The notes under the pieces were generated by a model. That model had not been told where the DNA came from, made no database searches, and saw only the letters and a program-made list of their open reading frames with translations. 20,996 nt of DNA from a virus: IMG/VR virus record IMGVR_UViG_3300046028_003091, positions 1 to 20,996 of that record. The stretch is one strand, 5' to 3'. Below, in pieces: positions 477-11,649 of the stretch (position 1 is the stretch's first letter; every line of letters begins with the position of its first letter). The translations under genes were made by a program, and so were the position numbers.

Positions 477-2450
477 TTAGGCTGGTTCAAATATCTGGTA
501 TGCCACGGTAGATGTGTCTGCCCCGTTGCTGCTGTCGACAGTGAACGACGTGCCAGCTACCCGGGAAGAAACCCGTAAAAACCCCGGCGTGCCGCCATCA
601 ACCTGTGAAGTAAGGAATATTCTACTGGCTGCAGTGACACTGGTATTTGCCACAACCACATGACCAGCAACCAATGTAGCCGTGCCCTGTTTGGCGTTGC
701 TGCCTTCCTTAACGCGCAACCCAGCACCTACCGTGTTTACTGTGAAGTTGCCAGCGCTGGTGAACTGCCCCACCTCTACGCTATTGATTGTCCAGAATTG
801 ACGCGCCGCACCCTTCGATCGGTACTCTATTGGAACAGTTGCATCGCTCCCCTCGGCGCCATACACCACGGCGTCTCCGGTAACGGCACCGCGCACCTGC
901 GTGCGATTGACCGCGCTGGCTAGATACACCGCACGGAAGGCCTCAGCACCTAGGGCGCCACCTGCAAGGAAGTCCCCCGTCGACGCGAACCGTGCAACAA
1001 CCTGCGAGCCGATGACTATGTCTTCTGTCGCGTCAAGCCGAACCTCGCCCGCGCGCGAAGTCAGCACGCGCTCGTTTTGGCCCCCGTAGCGGAAGTACAA
1101 GTATCCCGCGTTGTGCCATAGATCAGAATTGTTAAACGTGGCACCGGTGTACTGCGCCATGTTTATTACATTATCACCTACATACATGGCAGCAGCGGGC
1201 CGCTGCGCAAATCCCGCATAGCTGTCCGGGAACTCGATGCCGTATGATCCTGTTGCCGCGTATTTCCCAAATAGAATGCCGCGACTTTTGATCTTGTCGA
1301 TCAGTATGCCTGTATAGAACCCGCTCCATAGGGATACGTCGGCTCCAAGGTAGTTGTTGTCGCTGGGGGTGCCGTCAAACACGGCACCAAACGTCCAGTC
1401 CATAACGCCAGTGCCTGGAGTGCGGTAGTTCTTGTACAACCCGCCCGCGCTTGACCCTTTGCCCACAAGCAGCGTTTTAGTGCCCAGGTCGGGGTGGTTT
1501 ATCTGTACGTTCACCTCATGCCCAACCAGAGACCAGTTGGTCGCCGGCAGGTTTGCGTAGGTGGTGGCGTCGAGGGTGGGGCCTTCGGCGTATCCCCACA
1601 CGCCGCAGACAATGTTGCCGTCTCCTGGGTAGCCAGTAGTGTGCGAAAAACCCGCTACGCCGATTGTGTTGCCGTATGCGTCAAAGTCTGGTGCGGCGGC
1701 CGAGCCTTGGTTTGTGCCCTTCAGTGCCGCGTTGCCAAGCATGGCAATCCATGTGCCGTCGGTGTCGGTAGCGCCCGTGGTTCCCGATCCCTTTATCACT
1801 ACCGACCCAAACACCCCGCCCACTTCGTGCGCAAAGCGGTTGGTGCCGTTGTCGAACTTGGTGTACTTTTGAGCCCAAATTGCGGGGTCATTGTCCACTG
1901 CATTGGGTTGGGCATCCGTGCCGTCAAAGCAGCCAAGCACTGACGCCTTGTCAAACGTCATCGCAGTGGGGCTGACGTTGTTGTCCCAAAAAGTCCCAGT
2001 TGTGCTGTAGCGGCCTCCGCTAAAGTTAACCACCGAGGCGACCTGGTTGTCGACCACCGCCTTCATGGCGGTGAAGGCGGTGGTGTCGTCCGATATGCCA
2101 TCGCCCACCGCGCTATAGTATTTTGGCGAGTACCATGTACCCTGCGCATTAACTGCAGCGATGGCCTGCTGCACGAACTGAGTGCTAGCGGCCTGGGTAG
2201 TGCTGGTGCTCTGGCTCGCCGTGGGCACGGTGGGCGTGCCGGTGAGCGCGGGCGATGCCAGCGTGGCCAGGTTTGGGATGCTGTTGAGCTGCGTGTGCGT
2301 CATCGTCACTGCCCCCGTGACGTTGGCAAACGTGGCCTTGATCGCTGCCTTTATCAGGCGCAGGTGGTCGTCGCCCTCGGCTGTCAGATCGTTCGACCCG
2401 GGCTTGGTGGCGTCCAACTCATTGATGGTGGTGGCTGATTCGATGGTCAT
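477..2450 (-). CDS. Tail fibre / tailspike protein
   Basis: A 657-residue modular receptor-binding protein starting at the ATG at 2450, which has an AAAGGG site 5 bases upstream (the frame is open ten codons further but lacks a site and overlaps the terminator). In order: a virion-attachment start with DDHLRLIKAAIKATFANVTG (27-46); a collar-like ALTGTPTVPTASQSTSTTQA (68-87), of the kind in many T4-type fibres; an onset of pectate-lyase-like beta-helix, YYSAVGDGISDDTTAF (111-126); a long Gly/Asn/Thr/Tyr-rich beta body; and a conserved C-terminal module of about 80 residues (SNAKQGTATLVAG through STVAYQIFEPA) found on many phage and prophage spike proteins. It binds, and may cleave, host surface polysaccharide. 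No catalytic residues can be assigned. The gene is visibly less GC-rich than its neighbours. Confidence 0.88.
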   Translation of the reverse strand: MTIESATTINELDATKPGSNDLTAEGDDHLRLIKAAIKATFANVTGAVTMTHTQLNSIPNLATLASPALTGTPTVPTASQSTSTTQAASTQFVQQAIAAVNAQGTWYSPKYYSAVGDGISDDTTAFTAMKAVVDNQVASVVNFSGGRYSTTGTFWDNNVSPTAMTFDKASVLGCFDGTDAQPNAVDNDPAIWAQKYTKFDNGTNRFAHEVGGVFGSVVIKGSGTTGATDTDGTWIAMLGNAALKGTNQGSAAAPDFDAYGNTIGVAGFSHTTGYPGDGNIVCGVWGYAEGPTLDATTYANLPATNWSLVGHEVNVQINHPDLGTKTLLVGKGSSAGGLYKNYRTPGTGVMDWTFGAVFDGTPSDNNYLGADVSLWSGFYTGILIDKIKSRGILFGKYAATGSYGIEFPDSYAGFAQRPAAAMYVGDNVINMAQYTGATFNNSDLWHNAGYLYFRYGGQNERVLTSRAGEVRLDATEDIVIGSQVVARFASTGDFLAGGALGAEAFRAVYLASAVNRTQVRGAVTGDAVVYGAEGSDATVPIEYRSKGAARQFWTINSVEVGQFTSAGNFTVNTVGAGLRVKEGSNAKQGTATLVAGHVVVANTSVTAASRIFLTSQVDGGTPGFLRVSSRVAGTSFTVDSSNGADTSTVAYQIFEPA

Positions 2451-2468
2451 ATGGGCCCTTTCAGGCGT

Positions 2469-2490
2469 AAAAAAACCCACTCAAGGTGGG
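2469..2490 (-). terminator. Intrinsic terminator between ejection-protein and tail-fibre genes
   Basis: Minus strand: CCCAC-CTTGA-GTGGG stem-loop (2476-2490) followed by seven T (2469-2475). The T tract exists only for leftward transcription. It lies 18 bases before the tail-fibre start, so a promoter between it and that gene is not possible; the fibre must be transcribed by read-through. The sequence just after the T run (TTTTTTACG) is the same as after the terminator at 13845-13867. Confidence 0.85.
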
Positions 2491-2539: not shown

Positions 2540-2746
2540 ATGACCACAGCAGACATTGCCAGAGGCATCGGGACCGCAGTGATGGTGGGCGTTATCGGGC
2601 CGTTGTTGTGGCTCTTTGCTGCCTATGGTTCAAACGTTTTTGAGTCGCTACTCCGCAAAGCCATAAGCCGATGGGGCTCCAAGAAGCCCGGTGCGCAACA
2701 GCGTTTGCTCAATAATCTTGCGCGACTTCGGGTTATTCGCAAGTAG
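2540..2746 (+). CDS. Possible small membrane protein on the opposite strand (tentative)
   Basis: A 68-codon plus-strand frame starting at an ATG 4 bases after a GGGGAG ribosome-binding site. The first 36 codons occupy the minus-strand gap and encode a well-formed hydrophobic segment, VMVGVIGPLLWLFAAYG (14-30), followed by a basic amphipathic stretch (LLRKAISRWGSKKPGAQQR). The last third is antisense to the end of the ejection-protein gene and may be fortuitous. A single hydrophobic helix plus basic tail is a holin- or small-membrane-protein-like layout. It is the only frame on the plus strand that I consider possible. No promoter or terminator was found for it, so confidence is low. Confidence 0.35.
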   Translation: MTTADIARGIGTAVMVGVIGPLLWLFAAYGSNVFESLLRKAISRWGSKKPGAQQRLLNNLARLRVIRK

Positions 2747-4507
2747 CTTTCGCTCGGCATCTGTCATCAGCTTGGCCGTTTGCTGCGGGTTGAGCAGCGC
2801 ATCTGACAGCAGCCCCCGCATCTGCTGATCTGCGTCCTGGTAGATCCAGCGTGTGGCGCGGTTGATGCCCGGCAGGCTCAACAACCCGCCCATCACGCGC
2901 GGCATGCCGGTTTGCTCGGCAATGTTGGACATCGCAATTTTCTGGAACGTGTCGGACCCTATGCCGCGCCCTAGGTTTTGCGCATTGGACTTGCGCGCGA
3001 GATCTTGGGCGATGGCAGTCAAGGTCGCCATTTGCCCCGGATCCATGGTGGATTCCAGCGTGGCGCCCTTGAAACCTGTGGCCCTCGCAGCTGTGGCATC
3101 ACCCTCGCGCAGAGCGCGGCCAAAAGTTGCCGCTGTCTCTTGGCCCAGTGCACCGTAATCAGACAGGGCAGGCGCCACTTTCTTGTACAGATCCTGCCCG
3201 ATCTCCATTTGATTGACTGGCCGCGACAGATCCGCAAATGTCTGGCGGGCAACGCCGTAGGCCGGTATGCCTTTGTCGATGGCTGACAGCAGCGAATCCT
3301 TCGCGCCAGTCATCAGCCCTTTTTCGACGTTACCCAGCGAGCCATCGCCAACCTTGCTCAAGGTGTCGTCAAGCGCCAGCTTGATGTAGTGCAGGGCTTT
3401 GCCCGAATACTGGGCTGTTTGGGCTGGGACAGTGTTGGTGATTGCCCGGCCTGATGCGTCAAGGATGCCCGTCGCCAGCAGCTGCTCGGGCATGTCCCTG
3501 CCGATCTGCAGTGGCTCTTGCGCCAGCTTGGCCAGGCGTTGTGCCTTGGCCATCACCTCGGGCGGCAGACGGTCAAGCGCAGCGGCCAAGTCTGCCGTCT
3601 TGTTCATCACGGACGCTTTGGCTTGATCATAGATCGGCCCGGCTGCAGCACTGCGCGCTTGTTCTGCCGCTTTGAGTGCTGCGCCATCCTGCGCGATGCC
3701 TCGCAGCGCGCCGAGTCGAGCGCTTGCCTGCTCCATCGCGCGCACCGTGTACGCCTCTGGGTTGGCTTGCGATGCTGTGCGCTCCAGCGCCGCAAGACCA
3801 CCGCTTTCTGCAACCTGGCCGACAGTCGGCGCCGAACCGGGGACGAGCTGACCTGCTTGTTGCAGCCTCGACACGATGCCTGGCGCGCTGTCGCCGGCCA
3901 CCTGGTTCAGAAGCCTGCCGGCAATGGCATCACGGCCGCCTTGATAGAACGGCTCAACAAAGCCTTTGGCCGTTCGGCCGACCGCCGCCGCTGCTGCAGG
4001 CAAAACGCCCGCCGCAGCGCCCATCAGCGCCCGCCCGCCCCGTTCACCGGCTGCCCCATACTCCAGCGCGCCTGGTATCGCCCCAGCAAGCGCCATGCGC
4101 ACAGCGTTGGCGCCCAATGTTGCGCCGCCACCAGCCGGGATCACCATCGACGGCAACGACTCACCGATGCCTGTAGCCCAAGGCCGGGCCTGCTGCAGCG
4201 GCTTGTAGGCGGCATCGTCGGATTCTGCGGAGGCCTTCAGGTCGGCCAGCGCCATGTCATTGCCGGTGGCGCCGTAGTACATCTGCTGCGCACCCTTGCC
4301 GATGCGGTCAAAGGTCCTGCCTGCACCGATGAGCATTGACTGCGCAAAGCCTGGGTCGTCAAAGGCTGGTCCTTGCTTTGCGGGCGCGTCGGGCTGGCCC
4401 TGCTTGATGCTGATGATGGCTTGCGCCAAGCGCCGTGCGTCGTCGGTGGCGCCGGCCTTGTCGGCCGCAATCAGCGCAGTTTGCAGTTCTGCCAGCGTTG
4501 CCATCAT
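2648..4507 (-). CDS. Largest internal virion / DNA-ejection protein
   Basis: A 619-residue, largely helical protein, last of the ejection-protein block. The N-terminus has a short helical motif ELQTALIAADKAGATDDARR (7-26) followed by LAQAI, which recurs at the start of podovirus injection proteins and resembles a degenerate helical repeat. Residues about 118-185 are hydrophobic and Gly/Ala-rich (GGGATLGANAVRMALAGAIP, RALMGAAAGVLPAAAAAVG), consistent with membrane interaction. The rest is helix with scattered Gln/Ala. There is no peptidoglycan-hydrolase motif. Two adjacent ATGs (4507 and 4504) overlap the previous stop; the first gives a 4-base ATGA overlap. The stop at 2648 is followed by the largest minus-strand gap and then a terminator. 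Confidence 0.75.
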   Translation of the reverse strand: MMATLAELQTALIAADKAGATDDARRLAQAIISIKQGQPDAPAKQGPAFDDPGFAQSMLIGAGRTFDRIGKGAQQMYYGATGNDMALADLKASAESDDAAYKPLQQARPWATGIGESLPSMVIPAGGGATLGANAVRMALAGAIPGALEYGAAGERGGRALMGAAAGVLPAAAAAVGRTAKGFVEPFYQGGRDAIAGRLLNQVAGDSAPGIVSRLQQAGQLVPGSAPTVGQVAESGGLAALERTASQANPEAYTVRAMEQASARLGALRGIAQDGAALKAAEQARSAAAGPIYDQAKASVMNKTADLAAALDRLPPEVMAKAQRLAKLAQEPLQIGRDMPEQLLATGILDASGRAITNTVPAQTAQYSGKALHYIKLALDDTLSKVGDGSLGNVEKGLMTGAKDSLLSAIDKGIPAYGVARQTFADLSRPVNQMEIGQDLYKKVAPALSDYGALGQETAATFGRALREGDATAARATGFKGATLESTMDPGQMATLTAIAQDLARKSNAQNLGRGIGSDTFQKIAMSNIAEQTGMPRVMGGLLSLPGINRATRWIYQDADQQMRGLLSDALLNPQQTAKLMTDAERKLLANNPKSRKIIEQTLLRTGLLGAPSAYGFAE

Positions 4508-5751
4508 TGCCCCATGTTGATGTACTTCTTCACCAGGTCATCGACGCCGGTTGGCCCAGGCATCGGCACGCTATAGAACGGCACGAACGGCGCGAACTTC
4601 GGGTCGACGTTCTTGAGTTGCGACTGATGTTTTTCGATCCGCGAGATGTTGACCGTGCGCAGCGCGCCCGTCAGCGCCGAGATCTCGGGCGGTGTCATGG
4701 TGTCGATGTCGCCGCCAGCAGCGCGCAAGATCAGCCGGCGCTCGCCGTCAGATATCTGCCCCTGGCCGGCCAGCGCCTTGGCGCCGTCGGCAGCCAATGA
4801 CGCAGCGCTCTGGATCATCTGCCGCGTGTTGCCCAGCGTCTCCGCAGCGTCCTTGCCGCCAATGCCGAGCAATTGCCCCATCTGCATGCCAAAGAGCTGG
4901 AAGGGCTGCGTCGGGCCGGTGGCGACCTTGCCCGTCTTGAGCACGTTGTCGATGCGGTCCAGCGTGCCGATGGTGCTGGCCGCTGATCGTGCGATGTCGC
5001 GTGATGCTCCCAGGCTCTTGGCCGCGTCGTTGGCAAATGCCTCGCCGAAGCCCTTGTCCATGCTCACGCTGACATTGGTTGCCGGCGCGTGGCTCGAGTC
5101 CTTTTGCGCCTTGGCCAGCAGGATCTGGTTCCACTGCGGTGAGCCTTCGGGCACGCCGGCCGCGCGCAGGTTGCGCATGAAGTCGTCCTCTTTGCGCCCG
5201 CCGCTTGCCAGAGGCTTGTAGCCGCTGGCCCTGCCGCTGAACAGTTGCTCGCCTTCGCCCAGCTTGACGGGCGCGTCGTCTTTTGCCGTGGCGCTGATGT
5301 AGTCCAACGGCTTGATCTGGCCCTGGCGCATGGCCTCGAACAGCAGCTGCTGCTGGGGGTCGACGCGAGGCTGCGCAGATGCAGCCGCCATCGTGCCCAG
5401 CGGCGCGCCAGAGGCGTTGGCGGCTGCGGTGTTGGCGCTGCCCAGCGGCGACGGGATCGAGCCCCGAAACGCCTCCTCGCGGCTCTTGGCGAGCTGCTGC
5501 TCCTTGAACTGCGCTTGCAGTTGCTGCAGCTGCAGGCCGTGCATCTGCGCCATTTGCGAGGCCTGCGCCTCCTGCATGGCCAGTGCGCGCTTGCGCTGCT
5601 CTTGCTCTTGCGCTGCGGCCATCGTCTGCTGATAGCCCGACAAGCCGCGACCGGCGGCCTGGCCGAAGTTGCCACCACCCAGCAGCCCGGCGGCCATCTG
5701 CAGCGTGGCCATCGTGCGCGGATCGTCCCAGTTGTCGCCTAGCAAGCCCAT
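4504..5751 (-). CDS. Internal virion protein, Gln/Ala-rich N-terminus
   Basis: A 415-residue protein beginning MGLLGDNWDDPRTMATLQMA, with a Gly-rich hydrophobic start (AAGLLGGGNFGQAAGRGLSG). A Gln/Glu/Ala/Met coiled coil follows at about 41-95, then a low-complexity Ala/Ser region to about 130. The C-terminal half is ordered and helical (SMDKGFGEAFANDAAKSLGA, then DIARSAASTIGTLDRIDNVL), ending PFVPFYSVPMPGPTGVDDLV. This 'W-D-D-P-x-x-x-A-x-L' opening with a Gly-rich segment recurs in phage proteins near ejection or transglycosylase genes, but no lysozyme or transglycosylase catalytic motif is visible here. It is joined to its upstream gene by the one-base spacer TGACATG and overlaps the next by 4 bases. 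Confidence 0.72.
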   Translation of the reverse strand: MGLLGDNWDDPRTMATLQMAAGLLGGGNFGQAAGRGLSGYQQTMAAAQEQEQRKRALAMQEAQASQMAQMHGLQLQQLQAQFKEQQLAKSREEAFRGSIPSPLGSANTAAANASGAPLGTMAAASAQPRVDPQQQLLFEAMRQGQIKPLDYISATAKDDAPVKLGEGEQLFSGRASGYKPLASGGRKEDDFMRNLRAAGVPEGSPQWNQILLAKAQKDSSHAPATNVSVSMDKGFGEAFANDAAKSLGASRDIARSAASTIGTLDRIDNVLKTGKVATGPTQPFQLFGMQMGQLLGIGGKDAAETLGNTRQMIQSAASLAADGAKALAGQGQISDGERRLILRAAGGDIDTMTPPEISALTGALRTVNISRIEKHQSQLKNVDPKFAPFVPFYSVPMPGPTGVDDLVKKYINMGQ

Positions 5752-5752
5752 G

Positions 5753-6865
5753 TCATGGCCCCCCGAAAATTCTGTAGAGCTGCGCTGCCGTCAGCCCGCC
5801 GCCGATCGCGCCTGAGAGCGCGTTGCCGCCCTGCGTGTTGGTGCCGGTCTGGTTCAGCCCGGTGAACGGGTTGATCATGTTGCCGTACTGTTGGAACGGA
5901 TACAGGCTGGCCTGCTGCTGCGACAGCCCCAGGTTCGACAACCCCTGGCCTTGCGCCAGCTGCTGGGCCAGCGACTGGCTGTAGATGTTGGCGCCGACCT
6001 GGGCCTGGTTGATGTCCTGGCCGCGCTGGTTGGTGAAGAAGTTCTGCTGCGCGGTCTGGTTGGCCAGGTCGAGGTTGCCGTAGCCCAGGCCGCGCTGGGT
6101 GTCGGCCTGGAATTGGTTCGTCGCGTTGTTCTCCTGGCCCAAGCTGTACTGGTTGGCCGTCTGCTGCTGCGCATTGCCCAGGTTGCCCAGGCCGAGCGTG
6201 TAGGCCTGGTCAGCGCTGCGGTTGCCCAGCGCCAAGTTGCCCTGGCCCAGCGCATACTGGTTTTGCGTCGCGAGCTGGTTGTTGGCCAGGTTGCCCATGC
6301 CCAGCGAATACTGGTTGGCGTTGTTCTGGGTCGTGGCTGCCAGGTTGCCGTAACCCAGCCCCAAATTACCTTGGCCGAGCGCATATTGATTGGCGTTGGC
6401 CTGGTTGGTGGCCGCCAAGTTGCCCTGGCCGAGCTGGTACTGGTTGGCGGTCTGCTGCTGGCTGTTGGCGAGATTGCCGTAACCCAGCCCGAGGTTGCCT
6501 TGGCCGAGGCTGTACTGGTTGGCGTTGCTCTGGTTTGTCGCGGCCAGGTTGCCCAGCCCGAGCTGGTATTGGTTCTGGTTTTGCAGCCGCTGGGTGTCGT
6601 TTTGCATCTGCGCGACCGACTCGTTCGACGCGCGGTTGGCGTCGCCCTCGTAGGCCTGGCCGTACAGGCTGGCGATGGACGAGTTCAGGCCAGTCTGCGC
6701 GTTGCCGGCCGCGATGCCCTGGGCGATGCCCTGGCGTGAGCCGCCGTAACCGCCGGCCGCGATCGCGCCCGAGTTGATGCCCGGCAGCACGTTTTGCTGC
6801 AGGTTCTGGTTGCTGGCTGCGGTGAGCGCGCCGGCTTGGCTCTGGAGATACGGATTGATGGCCAT
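5753..6865 (-). CDS. Internal virion protein with 18/25-residue NQYxLGxGNL repeats
   Basis: A 370-residue protein that is almost without Lys (no clear Lys run), and very rich in Asn, Gln, Gly, Leu and Ala. The centre (about 97-265) holds eight copies of NQYxLGxGNL; the Tyr residues fall at 100, 118, 143, 161, 186, 204, 222 and 240, so spacings are 18, 25, 18, 25, 18, 18, 18. The 25-residue units contain one extra GLGYGNL heptad. The seventh copy is degenerate (DQAYTLGLGNL) and the eighth loses the GNL (SLGQENN). The N-terminus starts MAINPYLQSQAG and the C-terminus is Gly/Thr/Asn-rich. Position between other ejection-protein candidates suggests a capsid-stored protein that is ejected, perhaps as a tubular or filamentous component. 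No known domain is recognised. Confidence 0.75.
   Translation of the reverse strand: MAINPYLQSQAGALTAASNQNLQQNVLPGINSGAIAAGGYGGSRQGIAQGIAAGNAQTGLNSSIASLYGQAYEGDANRASNESVAQMQNDTQRLQNQNQYQLGLGNLAATNQSNANQYSLGQGNLGLGYGNLANSQQQTANQYQLGQGNLAATNQANANQYALGQGNLGLGYGNLAATTQNNANQYSLGMGNLANNQLATQNQYALGQGNLALGNRSADQAYTLGLGNLGNAQQQTANQYSLGQENNATNQFQADTQRGLGYGNLDLANQTAQQNFFTNQRGQDINQAQVGANIYSQSLAQQLAQGQGLSNLGLSQQQASLYPFQQYGNMINPFTGLNQTGTNTQGGNALSGAIGGGLTAAQLYRIFGGP
6071..6577 (-). repeat. Coding repeat array, 54-bp and 75-bp units
   Basis: This is the DNA underlying the NQYxLGxGNL array. Units of 54 bp (18 codons) alternate with units of 75 bp (25 codons, with a 21-bp GLGYGNL insert). The nucleotide copies are similar but not identical, so the array has diverged since it expanded. 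The reading frame is kept throughout. Confidence 0.85.
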
Positions 6866-6868
6866 TTT

Positions 6869-8176
6869 TTACCCGCGATTGAAATAGCTGGGCAAGCCCG
6901 GCACGCTGATATTGGGCCGGGTCAGGGTGGCCTGGCCGGTCGAGAACGGGTTGGCGGTGATGCCGCCGCCCAGCAGCCCCAAGCCCTGCGTTCGCAGCCG
7001 GTCATAGCCCTGCGCGTAAGCCGGGTCGGTCAAAAACTTGCGCTGCATCTCAACACCTTGATCGACCAGGGCGTTGCCGCCTTTGTTCTTGTTGAACCAG
7101 TCCTGCGCGCCAGACAGCAGCCCGCCAGAGCCGTAAAGGTAGGCGTCCATGCGCGGGTCGAGCTGCTGCTGCGTGGTGTTGGTCGTGCCCTTGGCGCCTG
7201 CCGTCGCACCGAGCACCGCACCGGCCAGCGGCAGCAGTGTCTTGGCGCCACCCAGCGCTGACGCGGCGCTGCCGAGGGTGCCCAGCAGGCCGCCGCCGCC
7301 TGCGCCAGCGGCCGCGCCGGTCAATGACAGGCCCGCCTTGGTGGCCGCCGCGTCCCAGGCTGGCACGCCGCTGGCGATCCCCTCGCCCAAAAAGGCACCG
7401 TTGCCTGCAGCGGGTACGCCACCCCCGCCAGCCGCCAAGCCCGCGCCAGCCGCCCCGCCTGCAGCGCCGGCCGCGGCAGTGATGCTGGCGATGTCGGGCA
7501 CGCCGGCCATCATCTGCGCCATCGTCACCGGGTTGGCTGCGCTGTACGCGCTGAGCGAGGCCAGCGCGTCGCCACTGCCCACCGTGCCGAGCAAGCCGCC
7601 ACCCCCTGCAGCAGCGCCACCCCCTGCAGCAGCGCCACCCGCAGAGCCTCCTGCGGCCCCCGCGGTGCCGCCTGCGGCCCCCATCGCGCCCATCAATTCG
7701 CCAATGCCCAGGCCGCCCACGCCGATCATGCCGGCCTTGACCAAATTGCCGAACATCTTGTCGTCGTCAGGCGCGCCCCATTTGACGACGTTGCGATCGC
7801 CGGTCAGCCCGTCTGGGCCGTATTGCTGGGTCTCGTAGCGGCCATTGCCCAGCGGCCGATAGGCCATGTTGCGCGCCGCGCCCTCGGCCGGGTCGCCAGG
7901 CCCCGTGCCCGGCAGGTAGAGGTCTGTCTGCACTGGCGCTCGGCCATAAGCGGCTGCGCCAGGGTCGGTATCAACACCAATCTTGCCGCCCGACCAGCCT
8001 TGCGGCAGGCTACCCATCGCTGCCTGCTCTTGGGCCTTGTACCAATCGGTGTAGGCAGCGCGCGGGTCGAACTGCGTGTCGAACCCGCCCTCGGCGCCCG
8101 GTATCCTCACAGGCTGAAAAGCGGCCTGCTGCTCGGCCAGGTAGTCCGCAAAACTCTGTCCAGGTTTGTAGCCCAT
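6869..8176 (-). CDS. Internal virion (DNA-ejection) protein, Gly/Ala-rich
   Basis: A 435-residue protein. Residues 1-140 are polar. Residues about 145-330 are dominated by Gly and Ala with hydrophobic patches (MIGVGGLGIGELMGAMGAAGG), and 331-435 form a mixed polar end (QQQLDPRMDAYLYGSGG, DPAYAQGYDRLRTQG). Such Gly/Ala-rich, membrane-compatible centres are typical of podovirus proteins packaged in the head and ejected to form a channel across the cell envelope (roles like P22 gp7, gp20 and gp16). The motif GGGGLLGT[VL]GS occurs twice, at 191-201 and 293-303, an internal duplication. An 18-bp tandem repeat encodes GGAAAG twice just before the first copy. It is the first of four consecutive large genes of this style. 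Confidence 0.75.
   Translation of the reverse strand: MGYKPGQSFADYLAEQQAAFQPVRIPGAEGGFDTQFDPRAAYTDWYKAQEQAAMGSLPQGWSGGKIGVDTDPGAAAYGRAPVQTDLYLPGTGPGDPAEGAARNMAYRPLGNGRYETQQYGPDGLTGDRNVVKWGAPDDDKMFGNLVKAGMIGVGGLGIGELMGAMGAAGGTAGAAGGSAGGAAAGGGAAAGGGGLLGTVGSGDALASLSAYSAANPVTMAQMMAGVPDIASITAAAGAAGGAAGAGLAAGGGGVPAAGNGAFLGEGIASGVPAWDAAATKAGLSLTGAAAGAGGGGLLGTLGSAASALGGAKTLLPLAGAVLGATAGAKGTTNTTQQQLDPRMDAYLYGSGGLLSGAQDWFNKNKGGNALVDQGVEMQRKFLTDPAYAQGYDRLRTQGLGLLGGGITANPFSTGQATLTRPNISVPGLPSYFNRG
7599..7634. repeat. 18-bp perfect tandem repeat within the Gly/Ala-rich gene
   Basis: Two identical head-to-tail copies of CCACCCCCTGCAGCAGCG (plus strand) at 7599-7616 and 7617-7634, followed by CCACC. It is in frame and adds six residues (GGAAAG) to the Gly/Ala linker of the internal virion protein. 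Slipped-strand expansion is the likely origin. Confidence 0.85.
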
Positions 8177-8441: not shown

Positions 8442-9980
8442 TCAGTACATTCCTCGGTTGACCACGTCCAGGTCGTAGCTTTTCAGCCGCCAGGGCTGCA
8501 CGTCCGTGCTGCCGATGCGCACCGCCATAAAACGCCCGGTCGCAAACACATCGGCCTTGCGGGTCGTGCCCACGGTGTAGGGCACGGCCGTGCCCCAGGT
8601 GGGCGCCACCTCGGCGTCCATCGACGCGCCCACTTGCACCGACAGCAGCGTGCCGGCCGGCGCATCGACACGCGGCACCAGGCTGCGGATCGTCTTGACC
8701 ATGTCGGGCGCATCAAACGTCATGCCGGTGCGCTCGAGCAGCGACGTGGGCGCCACGCCAGAGAACAGCGCGCCGGTGTCTTGCAGCTGCAGCGCCGGCC
8801 CCGCACCGCCCAGGATCAGCTTCATTTCCATCGCGTTGTACTCGTCCGCGCCCCAGGTTCCTGATCCGACAGCCCAGGTGTCGGTATGCGCTGACCATGC
8901 CCCTGAAACGCTGTAAGTGATCTGGCCAGTGGCGCCGCAGGTCACGCTCGGCAGTTGACGAACGCCGAAGGTGTCGTCGACCCAGTTCCACACCAGCGCC
9001 ATCGTGCACGCGGTGTCACCGCCCTGTGGCCAGCACACCCACACTTCATTGCGTGCCGGGTTGGTCGTCAAAAACGCCCGTTTGAAATTTGTGCTGTCGA
9101 TCTGGCCAAACAGCCAGCGCCGCATGCGCGCAGTGAGCAGGCTTTGCGGCCCCTGGCCCGCGTGCAGCACCAGGTCGCCGGCGGCCAGCACCACATGGCC
9201 GGCTGGAACGCTTGCGACGCAGTTGCGGGCGATCGCGCCCACGTCGCCCGGCAACCGCTGAAACTGCCAGATAAACGGCTGGCCGATGTAGCGCATGGCG
9301 TACATGCTGCGCTCTTTGTAGATCACGTTCATGTCGCCGAGCGGCAGCTGGTCGACGAGCAGGTCGGGCGTCTCGGAAAGATCTTGCTCGCCAGCGTCCT
9401 TGGTGGCGTCTGTCTCGTCCCACGATGCCGGCAGCGTGCCGGGGTCGGCCGCTGAAGACCACTTGACCATGTGCGGGTAGGACGTGGCGCCCTTGGTGAT
9501 GCCGAGCGCGACCAGGAAATTTTTGAACGGCCGCACGCTGACGGCGCGCCAGGTGCCAGTCCAGGCAGTGAGCGCTGCGAACTTGACGGAGACGTTGCCG
9601 CCCCAGTACTGCGGCAGGTCCACGCCGTTGTTGATGACCATGATCCCGCCCAACGTGCCGCCGACCCACTTGTCGTCGATCGCGCCGGTGTAGTCGCTGG
9701 CCGGCGTCAGGTTGGTGCGCGTGGTGCCGTCGTCCACATAGACCTTGGCCAGCCCGGCGTGCACCCACATCCGCGACGCGCCGGCTGAGAACGGCGCGAC
9801 AAAGTACGGCACCACGCTCGGAGTGGCGAACACCGCTGCCGAGCCTTTGAATCGCTCGGCGTAGCCGTCTCGAAACCGCATGTTGGTTGCGGCGCTCCAG
9901 GCGTTGGGCGGCAGCTCTTGAGGCGCAGCGTCGCCGATCACCCCGTACTGGCCAGCCGACGGGATGGTGACTCGGGTCAC
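8442..9980 (-). CDS. Large beta-rich virion protein, tail hub/nozzle candidate
   Basis: A 512-residue protein when started at the GTG at 9980, which overlaps the previous stop as GTGA. The frame is open about 97 codons further upstream, but that part is Arg/Trp/His-rich and is the out-of-frame reading of the previous gene. The opening GDAAPQELPPNAWSAATNMR followed by FRDGYAERFKG is typical of podovirus head-tail proteins that begin with an 'n-p-x-x-W-x-x-x-x-N-x-R-F' segment. The rest is beta-rich with recurring Trp and Gly turns (NGVDLPQYWGGN, HVVLAAGDLVLHAG, NEVWVCWPQGGDT), consistent with a propeller-like fold. By position and size it may fill the role of P22 gp10 or a tail nozzle. No enzymatic motif is visible. 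Confidence 0.72.
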   Translation of the reverse strand: MTRVTIPSAGQYGVIGDAAPQELPPNAWSAATNMRFRDGYAERFKGSAAVFATPSVVPYFVAPFSAGASRMWVHAGLAKVYVDDGTTRTNLTPASDYTGAIDDKWVGGTLGGIMVINNGVDLPQYWGGNVSVKFAALTAWTGTWRAVSVRPFKNFLVALGITKGATSYPHMVKWSSAADPGTLPASWDETDATKDAGEQDLSETPDLLVDQLPLGDMNVIYKERSMYAMRYIGQPFIWQFQRLPGDVGAIARNCVASVPAGHVVLAAGDLVLHAGQGPQSLLTARMRRWLFGQIDSTNFKRAFLTTNPARNEVWVCWPQGGDTACTMALVWNWVDDTFGVRQLPSVTCGATGQITYSVSGAWSAHTDTWAVGSGTWGADEYNAMEMKLILGGAGPALQLQDTGALFSGVAPTSLLERTGMTFDAPDMVKTIRSLVPRVDAPAGTLLSVQVGASMDAEVAPTWGTAVPYTVGTTRKADVFATGRFMAVRIGSTDVQPWRLKSYDLDVVNRGMY

Positions 9981-10891
9981 ATCGACACCCGGCCGGACGT
10001 CAATTCGAGCTCGCGTTTGAGCGGCCAGCCGCAGGAATCCATGAAGGCGTTGTATGTGGCATCTGACGAATCGCCGACCACAAAACCCTTGCCAAAGGCG
10101 ACCTTGCTGCCGAACCCGCCGCTGACCCCGTGGGTGTAGTCGTAGACACCCTGCGTCATAAATGGCCCGACGCCCGTGTCGTTGTAGGCATTGATGTGCG
10201 AGGCCTCGGTGAAGACCTTGCGGTGGTCGATCCAGATATCCCACGCGCCAACGCCATCGACGCATGACCATGTGACCTTGTGGACAATCTCAAACCATCG
10301 CCCGTACGGGCACAGCATCGGTTTGCCGCCGTACCCAATCAGATATCGCGTCGTGCGTGGGTCCGCAGCTAGCGAAGCGTCCGTGCTGAACGTGTTCTCC
10401 ATGTCGATGCGCCCGTAGGCATCAACAGTCATCCACCAGTTCGGCCAACCGCCTGCGGTACGTGGAGCTGTAATCAGGTCGTGATGCTGCGCCAAAATGA
10501 ATTTCTGAACCGACTTCGGGCGCGGGTCATCGGCCCAGAATGTTGCAGGAACGTAGATGGCCCGCCAGTACCAGAAGGTGCCAGGTACAGCCGAATATGT
10601 CGCGCCATCGATGCGCAATTCGGTTCGATTCCCGCTGCCTATGCTGGCGTGCTCCGGCGCCGTGTCGTCGGTGTCGTATACAGAGGTCTTGACGACGCGC
10701 TCGCCCGAGCCCGCAGGATCACTGACCAGATCAATCCGGCCAGCCACGCCATTTGGCCTCCCCGACAGCGCCAGCCACGGGTTGCCAATGGTCAGCCCCG
10801 TCGCCGGGTCCGAGCACATAGCGTTGTACTTGGAGAGGTTTTGCAGCCCGAGCGTTGGGCTTTGAAACCTGCCGTCGAAGAGGATGGTCAT
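9977..10891 (-). CDS. Polysaccharide-lyase-like jelly-roll protein (possible depolymerase)
   Basis: A 304-residue protein that resembles the jelly-roll polysaccharide lyase family containing heparin lyase I (PF14099-like). Visible landmarks in order: NRTELRIDG (88-96), where such enzymes carry an R-x-E pair; a FILAQHHD strand (131-138); GRWFEIVHKVTWS (197-209); and GAWDIWIDHRKVF (215-227), matching the late 'G-x-W-x-x-x-x-V-x-W-S ... G-x-x-x-x-W-x-N-G' pattern. A Tyr/His-rich tail (VYDYTHGVSGGFG) follows. The ATG at 10891 overlaps the previous stop as ATGA; a GTG three codons earlier is less convincing. It may degrade capsule or other host polysaccharide as part of the virion. The catalytic residues cannot be assigned with certainty, so a purely binding role remains possible. 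Confidence 0.68.
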   Translation of the reverse strand: MTILFDGRFQSPTLGLQNLSKYNAMCSDPATGLTIGNPWLALSGRPNGVAGRIDLVSDPAGSGERVVKTSVYDTDDTAPEHASIGSGNRTELRIDGATYSAVPGTFWYWRAIYVPATFWADDPRPKSVQKFILAQHHDLITAPRTAGGWPNWWMTVDAYGRIDMENTFSTDASLAADPRTTRYLIGYGGKPMLCPYGRWFEIVHKVTWSCVDGVGAWDIWIDHRKVFTEASHINAYNDTGVGPFMTQGVYDYTHGVSGGFGSKVAFGKGFVVGDSSDATYNAFMDSCGWPLKRELELTSGRVSM

Positions 10892-11649
10892 AACAACCAC
10901 TCCGACGGCGCCACCGGCGTGATCGGAGACCAGTGCAGGCGCTTGGCGAGCTGCTCCGGGTACAAGAACTGCCCTGCCGACGACGGCGCACGAAGCAAGT
11001 GCGCGCCGCAGAATGAGGCCGCAACCCCCGTGCCGCCAGGCAAATACTCGCCGAAAGTGAAAGCCTTGGCCGCGCCGACGTTGCCGGTCAGCGTCGCAAG
11101 GCTTTGGACGGTCGACTTGAGCACGCCGCCGATGTAAATCTGGACGGTATTGGCGACCCCATCGAAGAAAATTCCGAGCGTCGTCTCTACTCCGTCCGAT
11201 ATCGAGCCCGCAGCCGCACCGGGGAACACCGAATGTGAAGCGTCGTCGTAAACGCTCATCGTCATGCTGCCGTCAACAGCAACATTGCATTTCCATCCCG
11301 GCGTTACCGCCATGCCGAGCAGCGGCTGCGCAGCCAGCGTGACCTTGAACCGGGTTGAAAAGAAAAGTGAGTTTTTCTCGGCAGCACCCCACACCCAAGC
11401 GCCGAGCGCGGTCGAACTGGCTGCGACCGCCGGGTGCTTGTTGGCCGATGCGAGAGATGAAAACCGCCCCGCTACGGTGTTAGACAATTCTGCCGCACTT
11501 TGTGCCGACCCCGCGGCGAGGTTGTTGCCGAGTCCGCTGCGGTCTAGCACTGTGGCCTCGCTGGTGCCCTGCATACCGGGCAAGAAAAATATGTAGCCGG
11601 CCGACAATGCCGGGTTGATCACTCGACCGATTTTTGCAATTGCAGCCAT
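10888..11649 (-). CDS. Laminin-G/concanavalin-like jelly-roll virion protein
   Basis: A 253-residue protein with the hallmarks of a LamG/concanavalin A-type fold: VLDRSGLGNN at 34-43, which matches the usual 'D-x-SG-x-x-N' opening, and GVETTLGIFFDGVANTVQIY IGG (spanning 153-175), which matches the 'strand - x-D-G-x-x-x-x-x-x-Y/V-x-x-G' pair near the end of such domains. These folds commonly bind glycans. The body is beta-rich with no signal peptide. It overlaps by 4 bases (ATGA) a gene for a polysaccharide-lyase-like protein with a similar overall fold. It may bind cell-surface sugar or coat the head; whether it sits on the capsid or tail cannot be told from sequence. Confidence 0.7.
   Translation of the reverse strand: MAAIAKIGRVINPALSAGYIFFLPGMQGTSEATVLDRSGLGNNLAAGSAQSAAELSNTVAGRFSSLASANKHPAVAASSTALGAWVWGAAEKNSLFFSTRFKVTLAAQPLLGMAVTPGWKCNVAVDGSMTMSVYDDASHSVFPGAAAGSISDGVETTLGIFFDGVANTVQIYIGGVLKSTVQSLATLTGNVGAAKAFTFGEYLPGGTGVAASFCGAHLLRAPSSAGQFLYPEQLAKRLHWSPITPVAPSEWLL

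Follow-up and report, generated by a model that had tools for sequence, protein, structure and literature searches.

In known ejection systems, a channel is formed by proteins that rearrange on exit (PMC8954989). For phage SU10, gp20–24 were found by experiment to leave the virion upon genome release (PMC9509320), and in phiX174 the H-tube, which consists of helical 11- and 7-residue units and has a lumen of mainly Asn, Gln and Arg, is assembled at infection as a conduit for DNA (PMC7354561). Few phage parts are as poorly understood as ejection proteins, and those of SU10 are without resolved density inside the virion.

Here, a stretch of viral DNA of 20 996 nucleotides (IMG/VR record IMGVR_UViG_3300046028_003091; 'the window') was analysed. 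What is new is a length-variable, helix-phase-locked array within a podoviral protein of a known ejection family. The array is clearly a real feature, and no description of it was found in the open-access literature searched (subscription papers were outside the scope).

Genome context

The window was placed in the SU10 lineage on the basis of its gene order and of Pfam matches to SU10_MCP and SU10_adaptor. The gene order on the minus strand is terminase large subunit, portal, SU10-type major capsid protein, SU10-type adaptor, tail tube/nozzle-type protein, internal-protein candidates and tail fibre. The gene studied here (P0001) belongs to the internal-protein cluster that follows the tail tube/nozzle gene, as expected of SU10/LUZ24-type ejection genes. 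The features of this region are as follows.

477–2480, minus strand: tail fibre/spike with a C-terminal K1-lyase-type domain (PF24146, E 2e-28)
2648–4507, minus strand: candidate ejection gene, 619 aa, assigned by position; no significant family match
4504–5751, minus strand: next candidate ejection gene, 415 aa, with a Gln-rich coiled-coil-like N-terminal region, assigned by position and a weak phrog_5105 match (E 0.0011)
5753–6865, minus strand: P0001, whole ORF, 370 aa, array-bearing putative ejection protein of SU10 gp22/LUZ24 gp53 type
6869–8176, minus strand: partner gene upstream of P0001, 435 aa, Gly/Ala-rich with TM-like segments
8442–10271, minus strand: virion structural protein of tail tube/nozzle type (phrog_3287, E 5e-109), encoded upstream of the ejection genes
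9977–10900, minus strand: polysaccharide lyase domain (PF14099, E 8e-14), adjoining the tail tube gene; its product is possibly a virion depolymerase

The partner protein is extremely Gly/Ala-rich and has TM-like stretches, in contrast to P0001. Its C-terminal 90–140 residues are kept directly upstream in split relatives and, in some long members, form part of the N-terminus; a homologue of this part was found directly upstream in about 20 loci, which with few exceptions are of the short type. Because the segment lies upstream in split loci and is fused in some long members, the two genes probably function as one unit, of which the partner could be the membrane-inserting half. At its N-terminus, SU10 gp22 (322 aa) carries an additional segment, whose place is taken in the window by the separate upstream gene. 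LUZ24 gp53 was considered as a clean fusion of the two genes of the window; its N-terminal region (LLSGASDW...) resembles the upstream protein only faintly (BLASTP E 0.066), and the split/fused relation rests on the other relatives.

Repeat array of P0001

P0001 was divided into the following parts.

6650–6865, minus strand: conserved N-terminal domain, residues 1–72, with the family signature NPYL..NVLPGI.SGA..AGGYGGSRQGIAQG..LYGQAY
6095–6574, minus strand: repeat array, residues 98–257, with units of 18, 25, 18, 25, 18, 18 and 18 residues followed by a degenerate unit; consensus NQYxLGxGNL[AG]
6470–6490, minus strand: first 7-residue insert GLGYGNL, residues 126–132
6341–6361, minus strand: second 7-residue insert GLGYGNL, residues 169–175
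6071–6091, minus strand: third GLGYGNL, residues 259–265, past the last full unit
5756–6070, minus strand: C-terminal part, residues 266–370, QNFFTNQRGQD..FQQYGNMINPFTGL..GGNALSGAIGGGLTAAQL, kept in relatives with and without arrays

The initial annotation had described eight Tyr landmarks at spacings of 18, 25, 18, 25, 18, 18 and 18 residues, and these were reproduced exactly (Tyr100, 118, 143, 161, 186, 204, 222 and 240). The longer units are, as had been proposed, the 18-residue unit plus GLGYGNL: both of them (beginning at residues 116 and 159) contain this insert. The third copy of GLGYGNL accounts for the low coordinate of 6071 originally given for the array. The eighth unit is degenerate past NQYSLGQ (ENNA).

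Self-identity of the array was 25% at a lag of 43 residues (z 8.3; shuffle mean 11%), 22% at a lag of 18 (z 6.4) and 20% at a lag of 36 (z 5.4), compared with a maximum of about 17–18% in 2000 shuffles. The array is well beyond chance. At the DNA level, a 129-bp tandem (18 + 25 aa) was detected by TRF at 6225–6574 with 75% matches. The 160 residues of the array include 59 Asn/Gln and 23 Gly. Differences among the units number 138 at third codon positions and 70 and 71 at first and second positions; this approximately twofold third-position excess suggests, weakly, that selection keeps the amino-acid pattern of the array.

Family membership

Clear relatives of P0001 were found on nine viral contigs, and profile searches of viral contigs with the N-terminal region gave 159 relatives (344 with a second seed). 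Across 42 aligned sequences N4, P28, A34, G38, G41, S43, R44 and G46 are invariant. The relatives have in common an N-terminal signature, NPYL..AGGYGGSRQGIAEG..LYG.AY, and many of them also carry the C-terminal motif FYT.QRGQD...SP[YF].G...GG..LGGA..GAQ.

P0001 alone had no match among Pfam, PHROG and NCBIfam models, and neither its full length nor its N-domain gave a tblastn match in 50 697 phages; a search with the family consensus matched Vibrio and Microcystis phages. Among the 42 aligned members, 33 matched phrog_4287 ('DNA ejection protein') and 19 matched phrog_7477, the family of LUZ24 gp53, which is annotated as 'phage particle protein'. SU10 gp22 and gp21 matched phrog_4287 at 1e-109 and 1e-118, respectively, and the P0001-headed family profile matched SU10 gp22 at E 6e-5 and, in hhalign, LUZ24 gp53 at E 4e-7. 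Through its relatives and this profile, P0001 is assigned by homology to the SU10/LUZ24-type ejection family (phrog_4287/phrog_7477). Both its membership and the position of the array within the protein are established by computation. The original suggestion of an ejection-type protein agrees with this assignment, the relatives being virion and ejection proteins that include SU10 gp21 and gp22; by extension from them, P0001 would itself be ejected.

The genes for SU10 gp21 and gp22 are adjacent (L179:21904-23937), and as both fall in one PHROG they look like paralogues. The few relatives found on GTDB genome contigs were labelled Achromobacter, Rhodoferax, Thiobacillaceae, other beta-/proteobacteria and Novosphingobium, all of them Gram-negative groups. 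One relative (L025:5620-6726) has a C-terminal Peptidase_S74 intramolecular chaperone domain (PF13884, E 4e-6), which is unexpected for an ejected protein.

Array and unit lengths across the family

Family proteins are 212–789 aa long. In those members with a findable C-terminal anchor, about 0 to 570 residues separate the N- and C-terminal parts; in P0001 the figure is 197. On the N-terminal side, 26 of 69 members (P0001 included) begin no more than 20 residues from the signature and the others have 42–326 extra residues. The array is missing from many relatives and is thus dispensable to the basic function. Close array-bearing relatives (80–93% identical) differ in length by 7, 11, 18, 22, 33 and 43 residues, plus small gaps of 4.

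Unit lengths in the family are 11, 18, 22, 25, 29, 36, 40, 43 and more. In the first set of relatives, 16 distinct lags (11, 18, 22, 25, 29, 33, 36, 40, 43, 44, 47, 50, 51, 54, 55 and 58) had a self-identity z above 4.5, and all 16 can be written as 7a+11b. Their best common period in a scan from 2 to 12 residues was 3.62 residues, a fit matched by none of 5000 random lag sets; the lags are partly dependent, since sums of units create further lags. Arrays unrelated in sequence also have helix-phase lengths (11-mers of YGSDKSSAASI in L030, 22-mers in L083 and 18-mers in L141). Significant lags were present in only four of 36 new, held-out members. The two strongest, L141 and L146, gave lags of 18, 36 and 54 (plus 11 and 47 in L141) and fitted the period strongly; the two weak arrays, with lags of 21 and 45, fitted it poorly.

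Across the family, unit lengths are therefore phase-locked to the turns of an α-helix. The exact 18-residue unit of the initial annotation does not extend to the homologues, which use units of 11, 18, 22, 25, 29 and 40 residues, lengths other than 18 and 25 included, or in many cases have no array; the broader 7a+11b rule replaces it. The accompanying idea of helical phase (18 residues as five turns, seven as about two) holds for the family, in which the lags cluster at 3.62 residues and the charges recur at 100° in relatives.

Charge and hydrophobic periodicity

In eight arrays the charges peak at f 0.274–0.278 (98–100° per residue), the strongest of all frequencies, with none of 300 shuffles as high; the held-out L141 also has its charge peak at the helix frequency. 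Hydrophobic residues in most arrays peak at 0.442–0.447, which equals 1 − 2 × 0.278, the second harmonic. In all six of L006, L012, L024, L032, L035 and L037, the hydrophobic axes lie at 277–285° and 97–105° from the charge stripe, and the face at 150–210° is almost uncharged, with an Asn/Gln fraction of 0.43–0.45 and a Gly fraction of 0.21–0.23. Three of these arrays (L006, L012 and L032) contain the unit type of the window. The arrays of relatives thus have one charge stripe and two opposed hydrophobic seams. With a single frequency throughout, the two-seam pattern washes out in the long, mixed array of L002, and it is absent from L030 and L083. The array of L030 (L030:5824-7305) is a wholly different one of 11-residue units, in which the hydrophobic residues peak at 99°: a clean hendecad array.

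The P0001 array has four charges in 160 residues, of which three are at unit positions 15 or 18, where relatives carry the R and D of NRQADQ. Its hydrophobic residues peak at 160° (f 0.443) and not at 100°; this is the second harmonic of the helix and is also β-like. On a 100° wheel the amide face contains the near-invariant Q2 and N9 and is flanked by L5 and, on the opposite side, by Y3/L10. A one-sided amphipathic helix found no support, since the hydrophobic residues follow the second harmonic, and the two-seam reading was adopted instead.

Structure prediction

The AlphaFold model of P0001, calculated with 42 sequences, contains helices at residues 5–36, 42–124, 130–156, 173–249 and 268–320; the helix is interrupted at the GLGYGNL inserts or close to them. 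The mean pLDDT is 61, rising to 73–86 in part of the array. In the model of L002 (mean pLDDT 52) the first, 11-mer part is helical (pLDDT of about 60–80) and the Gly-rich 18/25-mer part is coil (pLDDT 33–40). Neither of these low-confidence models contains strands. Foldseek found nothing in the PDB at E < 0.001; against BFVD, the P0001 model gave no significant match and the L002 model matched one uncharacterized Caudovirales protein.

In the monomer prediction called for by the initial annotation, P0001 was thus all helix, at the low mean pLDDT given above, and the same type of Gly-rich units in L002 were coil. Going by the two models, the Gly-rich units of P0001 may be helical, perhaps only upon assembly.

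Comparison with described ejection proteins

SU10 gp22 and gp21 resemble P0001 in capsid/adaptor lineage, in the gene neighbourhood after the nozzle/tube gene and in belonging to phrog_4287, which most of the aligned family members match; gp22 is also profile-homologous. Unlike P0001, neither has a tandem array. LUZ24 gp53 shares the N-terminal signature GQYGSSRAGVAEG and a Gly-rich C-terminus, but also has no array.

P22 gp7 and T7 gp14 are small ejected DNA-transfer proteins, as P0001 would be, and are encoded at the corresponding genomic position, and P22 gp7 has a Gly-rich C-terminus. Homology to P22 gp7 was rejected: hhalign gave a Prob of 0.3 over 20 Gly-rich columns only, and P22 gp7 belongs to another PHROG (phrog_598). 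The gp14-like proteins, at 181–240 aa, change little in size (PMC8954989), in contrast to the range in the P0001 family.

The phiX174 H protein is similar to the P0001 family in its Asn/Gln richness and its 11/7-residue units, the 7/11 phase and an Asn/Gln face both being seen in relatives. It differs in having three hendecads, a transition and then 11 heptads, and in belonging to an ssDNA phage. P0001 had no Pfam match to PF04687 (phiX174 H), and no sign of the N-terminal signature of the family was found in phiX174 H. Array residues 131–189 of L035:3488-4651 match Microvir_H (PF04687) at profile positions 124–179 with 24.9 bits against a gathering cut-off of 22.7. The resemblance is probably convergent and not one of common descent.

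Discussion

We consider it probable, with some reserve, that P0001 is a podoviral ejection protein of the SU10/LUZ24 lineage with a helix-phase array that acts in an envelope DNA channel. P0001 would be packed in the head; during infection it would pass out via portal and tail and, within the Gram-negative envelope, assemble into part of the channel. The array, between the conserved N- and C-terminal parts, would be built of units (11, 18, 25 and 29 residues and their sums) that are whole helical turns, so that gain or loss of a unit would leave the helix phase unchanged. Once assembled, it would form long helices on which two hydrophobic seams lie opposite each other, the charges make up one sparse stripe, and one face is uncharged and composed of Asn, Gln and Gly; several copies would join via the seams into a tube or sheet, the amide face probably being turned towards the DNA as in the phiX174 H-tube. 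We infer an oligomeric tube with an amide-lined lumen, a tube being one of the forms (tube, sheath or filament) suggested in the initial annotation, and it may plausibly line the DNA. A single periplasm-spanning helix of fixed length (160 residues, 240 Å) is a weaker proposal in view of the spread among relatives, from about 0 to 570 residues.

Other readings were weighed against this one. The array might be a flexible, largely disordered Q/N/G-rich linker that is expanded by slippage or unequal recombination and aids threading through the tail, the unit length being structurally meaningless. The low-complexity composition, the 129-bp DNA tandem, the many relatives without arrays and the coil predicted for the 18/25 units of L002 speak for such a linker, which we regard as a serious but distinctly less likely explanation: slippage alone would not pick helix-phase lengths in all of the unrelated arrays (L030, L083 and L141), nor would it set the charges in one stripe at about 100° per residue. 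Periodicities of 11 residues also occur in lipid-binding helices, and the array could instead be made up of membrane-associated helices, in the manner of amphipathic 11/22-mers, and would then open or line a pore of the outer or inner membrane and not form a periplasmic tube. The adjacent Gly/Ala-rich protein with TM-like segments is in keeping with this, as is T7 gp14, an outer-membrane pore protein (PMC8954989). Nonetheless, P0001 has no 19-residue window above KD 1.2 and two opposed seams fit helix–helix packing better than a single lipid face, which makes a membrane pore rather unlikely.

The initial annotation had also offered a β-solenoid or amyloid-like stack, here with one rung per unit. 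Despite the richness in Asn, Gln and Gly and the aromatic/aliphatic residues at 160° in P0001, this now appears very unlikely: the rungs would vary between 11, 18, 25 and 29 residues inside one stack, strands are absent from both models, and the charges of relatives that have the same units follow the helix frequency, of which 160° is the second harmonic. That P0001 is a static structural component of the tail or head and is not ejected seems very unlikely given the gene order and a family that includes SU10 gp21 and gp22, both of which disappear from the virion when it empties (PMC9509320), even though P0001 has itself been directly detected nowhere.

The array is thus most likely a modular helical segment of an ejected channel. 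Tentatively, and with appreciable doubt, the lineage may build part of the conduit that takes its DNA across the envelope from interchangeable modules locked to the helix phase (11 and 11+7n residues), the gain and loss of which would tune the length of an Asn/Gln-lined tube convergent with the phiX174 H-tube. With the quantitative rule (3.62 residues per turn, one charged face, two seams and an amide face), the fold of the array can be predicted from its sequence in a family with no solved relative. The array has been lengthened and shortened in evolution as if the helical register were kept, and if the tube reading is true, part of the DNA channel would have a natural ruler in the length of the array.
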